Below, piece after piece: positions 14,331-64,000 of a stretch of 64,000 bases of DNA. The DNA lies in assembly GCF_032854445.1 (NCBI RefSeq), contig NC_088300.1, forward strand, positions 38,222,458 through 38,286,457. Reading direction: 5' to 3'. The stretch's first letter is position 1. Each line of letters begins with the position of its first letter. The notes under the pieces are model-generated. The model was not told the DNA's origin. It saw only the letters and a list, made by a program, of their open reading frames with translations, and did not search any database. A program made the translations under genes and the position numbers. Source of the stretch: Liolophura sinensis. Its lineage: Eukaryota > Mollusca > Polyplacophora > Chitonida > Chitonidae.

Positions 14331-57983
<43,653 letters not shown>

Positions 57984-59905
57984 AACACTCTACAAAGTGG
58001 GAACATTGCAGCTCGAGGAAATCACTGTTATATTAAAGATTCAAAAGTTCAGAATAAAGGCTGTGATTGGAATTTGGCTTCCAGCTGTAGCTGTTGAGAT
58101 GTGTAAAATATGGTGTGGACAAGGACAATGGAGACTGTCGATTAAGTCTGGATCTGTACAAGTTCCCTCATGGCTGTGAAGATGGATTTCAGTAATTTTG
58201 TTTTGGTAGAACTTTTAGCGAAAATTGTGAAATCAGCAATGGTGACAAGGCTGTGTTAATCCAGGATCTTGAAGGTGGATGTTTAGTGCCAAGGTGGCAG
58301 CCAACATATAAGTTGTGTGATTCATTGTGATAGAAATTTTTCGCTTGCTTTCAGAGAGACCAGATCGTATTAAAGGGAAATGCGTGGTGAATACAGCTCT
58401 ATAAATACAAGTTGATTGGAATGCTGTAATGAATATGTCCAAGAAGACCATTGTACTTAAATCATGTGACAAGACATGCTTTATTGACAGTCACTACCAC
58501 TGCAGTACTTGTTCGGCATTTTCTGTTTTGTATATGAATTTTGGGGAATGCTTATAACACTATTCAAGTTTCCTCTCCTCCTGCTTTCATTCATCAGTAT
58601 TGATCCATGTAGTTAACTATTTAGCGTCTATGGTGATCATGTATTCCAAACACTTATATGAAGTGGTTATTGCTAATTGTGATTAACGTTGGCTTTTCTC
58701 CCCCCCCCCCCACTGTGTGCTGTTGCTCAGTCAGGTATGTGAAGGGTGAAGTGATATCTCTTGACCATGTGTGTGTGTGTATGGATGGGGTCTGTGAACG
58801 AATGAATGAATGAGCCTGTATTAACAAAAATATGATGCGTGCAAACAGAGCGTGATATGTACATGTAGGCTTCAAGTAGTTTTAAGTTCAGCTTTTCCAA
58901 CCTAAATGTAAAGTTGCTCCTCCATTCAAATGAGTGAAACTCGTTTACGAAGATATACATCGAAATAAATTGTTTGGGAAATACATGTGAAACTTCCATT
59001 AGTTTCCACTTTCACAAAACTGCATCAGTCAGTTTTTTCATAACTTGCCCAGTAAATCATGTCACTTTATGGCGCTCTGACCCAGGAGTCATTTGTGAAA
59101 AAAGTTACCTGAACTTGGGTGATGGCCCCATATTGGTAGAGCTGGTTACAATATTTACATTTAGGGGCATCGGCCTTGTGGCACACATCCGCATAGTGTT
59201 GGACCCGGTACAGTGTGAGAGTTTTGGTCATCACAGTGCTAGATAGTCTAGTCAGGACCAGCATTGGTTCAGGCACACCTGGCTCCAGGCAGTTTGGCCT
59301 TATATTAACTATTTATTTGAGTTTCCTGGGGTCTGTAGTAATGTTCATTGTTCTTTGTGTAAATAAGCACCTTCCTGGTTTCACTCTAGCGATTTTGCAA
59401 ACATGCGATTAATGTTGTTCTGCATCAAAAGAGTGTAAAATGTGATTGGTTGTGAACCATTTGACCCTTTAGCTAATGAAAAATGATTGGAATCCACATC
59501 TTTTATTGATAACACATGCATTTCTATCATCACTGGTTTTGATGTGAAACAATCGCTTTGGTTGGTTTGTGTATGGTATGGTTCTGGAGTGATCAGAGTT
59601 GAAGCAGTGGTGGAAATTACTCGATAGAAACACGAGTTGGTATCTCGTAAAGCGTATTACCTCGATATCGGGTGTATCCGCCATGTGCCTTACACTCTTT
59701 AGAAACAGAAAAACATTAATCGCATGAAAACCAGGGAAGGGGTTGGGGGGGGGGGGAGTCCTTTTGTGTATAGAAGAGAGGGTGCGTGAGCATGAGCCTG
59801 TGTGTGTTTCAATATTAAAAGACTTGCTACCAAATGTACACCCTAAGCCATTCTCAAAAACATTATAATGTTTTCTCAATAAAACATACTGTTTGAACTA
59901 AAGTT
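57984..59905 (+). other. Probable HECTD1 3' UTR
   Basis: Follows the HECTD1 stop. AATAAA occurs early at 58053-58058 and again at 59878-59883. The later one has a T/G-rich downstream element, giving possible short and long 3' ends. A C tract lies at 58701-58711 and a G tract near 59745. No open frame resembles a gene. Confidence 0.5.
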
Positions 59906-60120
59906 GTCTCTGTCCTTAATTTAGGCAGGATAGGGGGTCATTCCGTTTGCAGTGACTTCGAGGCGGTTTTTGAAATATGGCCCTTTAGAAACACCTTGTA
60001 TTGTTCACTTGTTCTGGAAACCTTTTTAGATAATTAATTTACTATTCAAGAGGACAGAATCGGGAAATCCACCTGCTGGGGTTTTCCTACCCAGGCTTTC
60101 AGAATAGCAATACCTTTACG

Positions 60121-61560
60121 TACTGCCACCTGTAAACAGCGTCCATCTGCCATAAACGTCCACTTTCAGCCGTGACAAAACAATTTTCCATGTTAAACAA
60201 CCTGTAATATCCGGGCACCTGTCCAACGCGTCTAGCGGCCAATATATTTGGCGACCAAATTCTATATCTGCCTGTCCTGAGCGGCCGAGACTTTCAAAAG
60301 TAATGATGATTGCCGCGTTGGACATTCAAAAACTTCAAAATGGCGACCACATGCTGCGGAAGTTTTTGTAGGGATTAAAAGTTACAACCTGCCACTTTGT
60401 GATGACAAGTGAAGTGTGATCATTATTGGTGAATGGCGATGAAGTCTCTTGTTCTTTAATGAGGCCCAGCTGGCCATAGTCTGGACACTCCGGAAATCCA
60501 CTGCTGCAGTGGATTAACTCCATGCTGAGGTCCGAGCTATGAATGCCATAAATAGCGGGCAAACTGGGATATAATCTGACCTCCTGTGGTTCCTGCCATG
60601 AATGGTTTCTTTCACAAATTACCAGTTGGTAGAGCGTCCGCTTCGGGACCGGTAGATCCAGGATCAATCCTTGATCGAGTCACACCTAAGACTTTAAAAG
60701 AGGAAGTTGTAACTTCCTCGCTTGGCGTTCAGCATGAAGGGGATAGTGCAACGACTGGTTGACCCGTATCAGTATAATGGCTCGGGCGGGGCGGCTTACT
60801 TACATTCGGTAAGTCGTCTCAGTGAAGCAGCACTAAATAAAAGAGCAGTGGAAATCCGTCCTGCAACAAGGAGGCACATTACACGTACATGCACCCTAAT
60901 GATTCCTTCGTCGTCATATGACTGAAAAATTGTTGAGTACGACGTTAAACCCCAAGCACTCACTCACTCACTCACAAATTACCTGGCTTGCTTGACCATC
61001 ATCTTTGCAGGGAAATGGTGGTGTGTTTTCATTTCGCGTTGCCTGTTCCGAACATATGGAGAAATTGATCTTCCTTCACTCGTACATTTTGTTGTTGTTG
61101 GTGTTTCACCGGTAATGGCAAATATGATTGACTGGATTTTCGAGCATCTGAGAAGTCTGCCATTTACAGACCAAAAATTTGTTAGAATAGTTATTTATAC
61201 CTACGCAGGCCAAACTGGCACATGGCTTTCTTGGGTTTGACAATGATAGGAAGAAAGTTCTCCTGTCATACGTGCCCTGACCTGAGACTCTTTCTGTAAG
61301 TGCCTGCACCCCACAAAACTTGAAATTATTGAGTTATTATTTCACTACAATTGTTATATTTCTCTGAAATGTATGTAGCAGAACAGATTAATGTTTTAAC
61401 AATTATTTATAAGTTTACTATGTACATGAGCAGATTTGCTGAAACTTAATTCAGTTGTGATTTGGCTTGGCCTTCACAACCTGTCTTACGTGGCCAACTG
61501 TCATATGCGTCCACTTTTTACAGCTCCCTTCACTGTCCGCATAGAACAGGTTTGCCTGTA
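60121..61560. mobile_element. Tigger/pogo-like non-autonomous element inserted in the inverted repeat
   Basis: The ends are rich in Tigger-style half-repeats: TACTGCCACCTGTAAACAGC at the left and, reverse-complemented, TACAGGCAAACCTGTTCTAT at the right. Internal blocks CGGGCACCTGTCCAACGCG and CCTGTCCTGAGCGGCC (left) and ACCTGTCTTACGTGGCC (right) are typical of this group. It interrupts arm 1 of the large inverted repeat at a TA. No transposase is seen; the interior also carries a SINE. Confidence 0.55.
60624..60971 (+). mobile_element. SINE family A with 12-bp target duplication, nested in the Tigger-like element
   Basis: Starts inside the tRNA-like head (AGTTGGTAGAGCGTCCGCTT), followed by the full family A body and CACTCACTCACTC end. 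TCACAAATTACC is repeated exactly at 60612-60623 and 60972-60983. Confidence 0.9.
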
Positions 61561-62554
61561 TATTCAATACTTCTTGAGATAATAGCCCTTAAACATCACA
61601 CTTTGATCAACACTTTTTTTTAATAACATTATTGCTTTCAAGTGAACACAAAGTCTGCCACAATATATAGACAGAAAAAGGATATAGGACAGTTATTACA
61701 GAAAATTCTACAAGCTGAGAAGATGAAGTTCAATGAAGTGGCAATAACCAACAATTCACTCTGAGTAACCATGTTATTGAATCCCTTATGAACTTGCTAT
61801 TTATTTTGCTGATAAGCAGTGTAGAACATTTCTGGAATACTACTTTAATTACTTCATCTTAGTGGCTGACTAACATTTCTGGAATACTATTTTAATTAAT
61901 TTAGCTTTAGTGGCTGACTTTATGTGACTTCAAATTTTAAGATGTATGATATACATGATCATAAAGTGTGTCACGTGATTAGCTTTTAAGAATTTACTTT
62001 CAATAGGAGTAGAGAACAACTCTTGAATTTTCTTCCATCGTTAGTGAAGAGATGTATCTTGATGTGAGAAAAAATTCAAAGAGCTGTCCAACTGTCAAGG
62101 CAAACAAAAAAAAAGGGGGGTTAATTGCAAAGTCATTTCTCCTAGAGCATAGTTCAGGCACCAAGCACATGTAAGATAAAGAAAAAGTGATCAGGCCTTC
62201 TTGTGAAAATGACCATGTACCTAAATAACACTAACCAGGTAACAAAGATCTATATAATTTCACCTGACCTATGACAGCTCACTGAAAAGGCAAAATTTAC
62301 CAAAGGCGTTAATCAGAGTGTAATGTTTAAGGGCTATTATTTCAAAAAGTACTGAGTATTTCACTTTTATGAAAGCCTGAGTAGGAAAACCCCATGAGGT
62401 GGATTTCACGGCCTTTAGTCCCCTTGAGTAGAAATTACAGCCATCTAAAACTGCTTCCAGAACAAATAAGCATTTCGAGACTGTTGAAAATGAACAGAAC
62501 ATGGTGTTTCTAAAGAAACATCTCTCAAAAACAACAGCTGAAATGGAATGACCC

Positions 62555-63312: not shown

Positions 63313-63810
63313 TCAGAAATCCTCTGGTAGGTCAGTCAATGGGACATTTCCTTGTGCTATGTCCATTCGCACTTGCCACCTTAGAGCTGAACGTTTCTTC
63401 TCTGTGGGAACTACATAGGAGTTGGGAACATAGGTCTTTTGTGGTCTCTGTATTAAAGAAAAAAATTTCCCTCTTAGTCAAGTCTTGATTTTTTCTTAAA
63501 TCCTAAGGATAAAGAAATATGCATCTTCTTCTTTTTTAAGAAACAGATTCAAGGTCAATGATGATACTAGCTTTGATGTTCAACTGAACGGAGATTCTAA
63601 CTGATTTATGCTTAGAAACATGACTTACTTTATACTCCATTGTGTCACGACACAACATCTGTTCTCGGACATTCCAGCGTAGTCTCTTGTGAGCTTTCTC
63701 TCCTGGTACACGATTGGCTGCCCATGACTGTCGGAACTGCTGACCTCTGGCAACAGGGTCACACTTCCTCAGGTTACGGGTATGAGGGTGGTCAGCTGAC
63801 CTTAGAATAA
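63313..63810 (-). CDS. HYLS1: HYLS1, centriolar/ciliogenesis protein, last two coding exons (5' partial)
   Basis: HYLS1 is a centriole-associated protein required for cilium formation. Two exons on the minus strand are clear: 63810-63629 and 63447-63313 (stop TGA at 63315-63313), joined in phase 0 across a GTAAGT...CAG intron. The first encodes [40 protein letters not shown] and [14 protein letters not shown]. The second encodes [37 protein letters not shown] and ends PEDF. This matches the conserved C-terminal HYLS1 box and the following [18 protein letters not shown] block. The acceptor at 63811 (TTTTAG) implies a split codon whose first base lies in an upstream exon, not identified here. 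The rest of the gene lies beyond the window. It is convergent with HECTD1. Confidence 0.92.
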
Positions 63811-64000
63811 CTAAAACATGAACAGCAAACTTCAGGCATTTACAGATTGATTTATTTGATTGGTGGTTAAACAAAAATTATTCACATACATGATGCTAGT
63901 CAGGTGTAAAGACAAAGAAAACCCGAAAATAAGTATATGGTAAATGATGTCAAGTTTTGACTGTCGGTTTCTGTCGTTTACTTTGCCACGGGCTGAGTTG

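Follow-up and report, generated by a model that had tools for sequence, protein, structure and literature searches.

Relative order of nested mobile-element insertions read from an inverted repeat with one occupied and one empty arm

An outer inverted repeat at positions 59935-62554 of the 64-kb stretch of DNA analyzed here (the window) carries in one arm a 1,446-bp insert that is absent from the other arm, and the insert in turn holds a SINE between the two copies of a perfect 12-bp duplication. The nesting permits a relative chronology to be read from one molecule: an inverted repeat, then a DNA-transposon-like insert, and then a SINE, an order that we regard as very probable. These nested mobile-element fossils are an ordinary, well-preserved case of a known phenomenon, with no departure from known kinds.

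An interrupted arm and its uninterrupted partner

With the insert set aside, the outer repeat measures ∼1.17 kb and has arms of ∼240 to 260 bp. The outer part of arm 1 (59935-60112, plus strand) starts with GGGTCATTCC, stops at the TA target, and aligns with the outer portion of arm 2 when the latter is reverse complemented; the inner part (61561-61624, plus strand) follows the insert. Arm 2 (62295-62554, minus strand) is uninterrupted. Between the arms lies an A+T-rich center (61625-62294) to which no strand is assigned. This center also holds a tandem pair, a 47-bp duplication at 61825-61919.

Local alignment of the two parts of arm 1 with the reverse complement of arm 2 gave scores of 94 (59935-60107) and 71 (61560-61624), while same-strand comparison with arm 2 gave 19 and 14. 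Chance similarity was excluded as the source of the match by three controls. Shuffled sequences reached at most 27 for either part (200 shuffles each), random 260-nt stretches of the window (n = 300) reached at most 26 and 24, and BLAST of the region against the whole window returned E values of 3e-16 and 7e-12. In that search the main matched blocks were 79% and 84% identical, and in a global alignment several indels, the largest of 24 nt, separated the arms. The similarity breaks off in arm 1 near 60107-60113 and picks up at ∼61560, with no such break in arm 2. The arm alignment proposed in the sequence-only reading gave a match far above chance on both sides of the interruption, and arm 2, which had been placed ∼0.7 kb downstream in inverted orientation, lies 670 nt from arm 1.

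The site without the insert can be located by two marker words, CAGGCTTTC and ATAATAGCCC, each of which occurs once per strand in the window. They stand at 60092 and 61579 in arm 1 and, as reverse complements, at 62371 and 62331 in arm 2. Their spacing is 1,478 nt in arm 1 versus 30 nt in arm 2, so that arm 1 carries 1,448 nt of extra DNA, equal to the 1,446-bp insert plus 2. The empty site lies inside the 30-nt spacer of arm 2 (62341-62370), which contains TA. Both of the corresponding earlier claims, that ∼1.44 kb interrupts arm 1 between the marker words and that arm 2 has the same flanks joined by a TA-containing spacer, agree with these measurements.

For the position of the joint, flanks were joined at 1,800 pairs of cuts (45 left by 40 right) and each product was aligned to arm 2; on the assumption of a TA duplication, 20 of the 1,800 were consistent cuts. 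The best of these placed the insert at 60113-61558, with no strand assigned, between TA dinucleotides at 60111-60112 and 61559-61560 (both plus strand); it scored 144 and was gap-free across the joint to arm 2. The runner-up, in which the insert ends at 61560, scored 142. Because three of the 1,800 cuts, all without a TA duplication, scored 1 to 2 points above the best TA cut (146, 145, and 145 versus 144), a TA duplication at the joints is favored, not proven, and we treat the two dinucleotides as a putative target duplication. Two other placements were rejected. A left end at the TA at 60121 improved the end-to-end match of the insert (8 versus 2) but gave a poorer empty site (130 versus 144). 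The global alignment also placed seven arm-2 bases within the insert at 60407-60413, which we take to be a cheap-gap artifact because the joint alignment of cut pairs puts these bases at the joint. The arms and the insert delimited by the sequence-only reading are thus real, but its bounds required adjustment: the arms begin at 59935, and the insert is best described as 60113-61558 plus one TA.

Identity of the insert

By its right end only, the insert is pogo/Tigger-like. This end reads CAGGCAAACCTGTTCTATGCGG from outside and adjoins TA; the bases next to the TA are CAGGCAAACCTGT, whereas the left end at the best TA is CCTTTACG, not CAG. The motif ACCTGT(3-9)GYG, one of six patterns tried, all of them chosen after looking at the sequence, has seven occurrences on the two strands of the window. 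Four fall within the insert, where the rate elsewhere in the window would predict 0.05, at 60128, 60217, 61479, and 61551 (minus strand), near both ends. The right terminus and this motif may resemble the ends of pogo/Tigger elements.

Several searches of the insert gave null results. Terminal inverted repeats at the TA pair 60111/61559 scored 2, a value that 55% of random TA pairs equal or exceed, and the best end match among the 20 TA pairs scored 8, reached by 9% of random pairs (95% level, 9). Local end-to-end alignments of the insert were equaled by 134 of 500 and 138 of 1,000 shuffles. No Pfam family, including CENP-B/helix-turn-helix and DDD transposase domains, was matched at E values up to 1 in 10 of the 12 insert frames. 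A non-autonomous derivative need not carry a transposase. A single IMG/VR contig matching a degenerate 20-base pattern of the right end was set aside, with about one chance match expected by a rough estimate.

These results bear on the name Tigger-like, which the sequence-only reading had given to this DNA. TA on both sides at the best TA-consistent cut, a right end that begins CAG, and the ACCTGT motif are compatible with it; the insert differs from pogo/Tigger elements in having ends unmatched above background, no trace of a transposase in the 10 frames scanned of 12, and a length of 1,086 bp once the SINE and one of the two duplicated words beside it are subtracted. It is also quite possible, if short of probable, that the insert is a TA-targeting element outside this group, such as an undescribed MITE or a different Tc1/mariner relative, or that it is composite and its left end has decayed. 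The background-level end repeats and the missing transposase would both suit such an element, as would a left end that reads CCTTTACG and not CAG, but CAGGCAAACCTGT next to the TA and ACCTGT motifs near both ends would fit pogo/Tigger termini. On balance, the insert works like a TA-duplicating DNA transposon whose membership in pogo/Tigger is plausible but unproven; pogo/Tigger is the likeliest group, and we hold that assignment with slightly better than even confidence. If the insert is a Tigger element, it would be a decayed or non-autonomous derivative, because Tigger copies from eight mollusc species are described as 1,609 to 3,452 bp long when full, with 15- to 25-bp inverted repeats when intact, and with TA duplications (PMC9219625). 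Two further papers give a range of 1.20 to 5.20 kb for pogo elements (PMC7386202) and describe Tigger elements as polyphyletic (PMC7325037).

The SINE within the insert

A tRNA-like SINE with an ACTC-repeat tail occupies 60624-60971 on the plus strand. It is bounded by the left (60612-60623) and right (60972-60983) copies of its target duplication, TCACAAATTACC, also on the plus strand. The word is found at 60612 and 60972 only, with none on the other strand of the 64-kb window, and the perfect 12-bp duplication previously ascribed to a SINE inside the insert is accordingly exact and unique in the window.

Related stretches are dispersed in the window, at 38461-38775, 21643-21789, 17384-17579, and 23085-23378, one of them nearly full length; weaker matches at 55445-55509 and 40484-40530 cover the 3′ part of the SINE only. 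Our alignment of copies took the four best places in the window and left out the two 3′-part matches. An 11-bp duplication, with one mismatch, flanks the copy at 38.4 kb, and between this duplication and the first base that the 38.4-kb copy shares with the 60624-60971 copy lie 17 further nucleotides. Because of these extra nucleotides in the 38.4-kb copy, the SINE at 60624-60971 is probably 5′ truncated, ending ∼17 nt short of that copy. Another dispersed repeat family was seen at 40297-40545, 55375-55523, and 55782-56040; its members are 88 to 97% identical, and two of them show similarity to the 3′ part of the SINE as well.

In the alignment of copies, the 5′ part of the SINE contains words that, judged by eye, may be box A- and box B-like. 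ARAGORN (bacterial code) reported no tRNA in the window, and Rfam gave no match at gathering scores. The element shares with tRNA-derived SINEs a simple-repeat tail, putative tRNA-like words in its 5′ part, a target duplication, and dispersed related stretches in the window. Among mollusc SINEs, a Nin-SINE has been described from a limpet (PMC11121367). An exact 27-base pattern of the SINE tail was absent from viral and prokaryote contig collections, both of which exclude animal genomes by design. Plasmid records held no match to the region, and a narrow text search of papers did not find the tail.

Order of insertion and nature of the outer repeat

The insert contains the SINE, whose flanking duplication consists of insert sequence, and the insert itself is in one arm and missing from the other; the nesting and the order inverted repeat, 1.45-kb insert, SINE are, for these reasons, very likely correct. 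The order proposed in the sequence-only reading is supported by three features, namely the empty site, the TA dinucleotides that border the insert at the best TA-consistent cut, and the duplication around the SINE; CpG content supports it loosely. The ratio of observed to expected CpG is 0.25 in the inverted repeat (9 seen, 36.2 expected), 0.62 in the insert (30 of 48.6), and 0.99 in the SINE (20 of 20.3), with medians of ∼0.35 in like-sized windows elsewhere. Only the SINE exceeds the 95% point of like-sized windows (0.81 at 348 nt); the inverted repeat and the insert, for which the 95% point is 0.68, fall within the 5 to 95% range. Taken piecewise, the values are less orderly: 0.11 in the repeat center, 0.33 in arm 2, 0.53 in outer arm 1, 0.49 in the right part of the insert, and 0.72 in its left part, the low value of the inverted repeat stemming mostly from its center (61625-62294). 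The rise along the inferred order is a loose, independent hint. Progressive CpG loss would fit, but the CpG content of the founder sequences may have been unequal from the start.

With one occupied and one empty arm known here, the 1.45-kb segment could instead be original to the arm family and have been lost from arm 2 by deletion. We consider this very unlikely: flanks joined at the TA-bounded cut align to arm 2 without a gap at the joint, an outcome that a random deletion would rarely produce, and CpG ratios differ overall between insert and inverted repeat, though those of their pieces overlap. What the outer repeat itself represents is a separate matter. Each arm has an abrupt end at GGGTCATTCC, a pattern expected from the two termini of a single element, and these sharp ends suggest that the repeat is a transposon. 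The longest exact word common to its two 30-nt flanks, compared for exact words only, was 4 nt and out of register, so that its outer ends show no target duplication, and BLAST at E values up to 0.01 found no further copies of the arms in the window, the sole partner of each being the opposite arm. Both findings suit a reading, possible though on the doubtful side, in which the arms do not belong to one transposon and are either independent copies of a repeat in opposite orientation or the product of a local inverted duplication. Of the triple-nested transposons described in the sequence-only reading, then, the nesting and the sharp GGGTCATTCC ends stand, but the outermost member shows neither a target duplication nor another copy in the window; it may be a decayed long-inverted-repeat transposon or two opposed copies of a repeat. 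That it belongs to an undescribed long-inverted-repeat family, with GGGTCATTCC ends and without recognizable target duplication, seems unlikely; if it did, such a family would have an unusual insertion mode.

The arm homology, the empty site, and the SINE with its duplication are observed here, and the nesting follows from them; the course proposed below goes further and infers which transposase family acted, what the inverted repeat is, and by what enzymology each insertion took place. A decayed element with opposed arms of ∼240 to 260 bp would have lain between two convergent genes. A non-autonomous, TA-duplicating DNA transposon would have entered a TA in arm 1 by cut-and-paste, with duplication of the TA. 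Later, a tRNA-derived SINE would have entered the insert by target-primed reverse transcription, with ∼17 nt of its 5′ end missing and a 12-bp duplication made. Nested insertions are an established means of ordering elements, and in transposition-in-transposition, or interruption, analysis the activity of elements is reportedly ordered by which interrupts which (PMC3014933, PMC2517846). The present case likewise takes its order from which element interrupts which but differs in that it concerns one locus, where the opposite arm of the molecule itself supplies the empty site. If its orthologous sites in related species were examined, the locus could act as a marker.

Judged by domain matches, the nested elements sit between two predicted convergent genes. 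HECT-domain stretches lie upstream on the plus strand, the last of them within 57528-57980 (E value, 4.3e-26), and a HYLS1 C-terminal domain lies downstream on the minus strand, within 63536-63874 (E value, 9.2e-17); 8 of 57 stop-to-stop frames were scanned for domains. Such genes point to an animal host, and the style of the SINE may point to a mollusc. Just upstream of arm 1, at 59402-59726, is a shorter, MITE-like inverted repeat with 37-nt arms that are 89% complementary and 251 nt apart; the longest exact word common to its flanks is 4 nt. Elsewhere in the window, a tandem array at 25417-26430 comprises 21 copies of a 48-bp unit with 94% matches.
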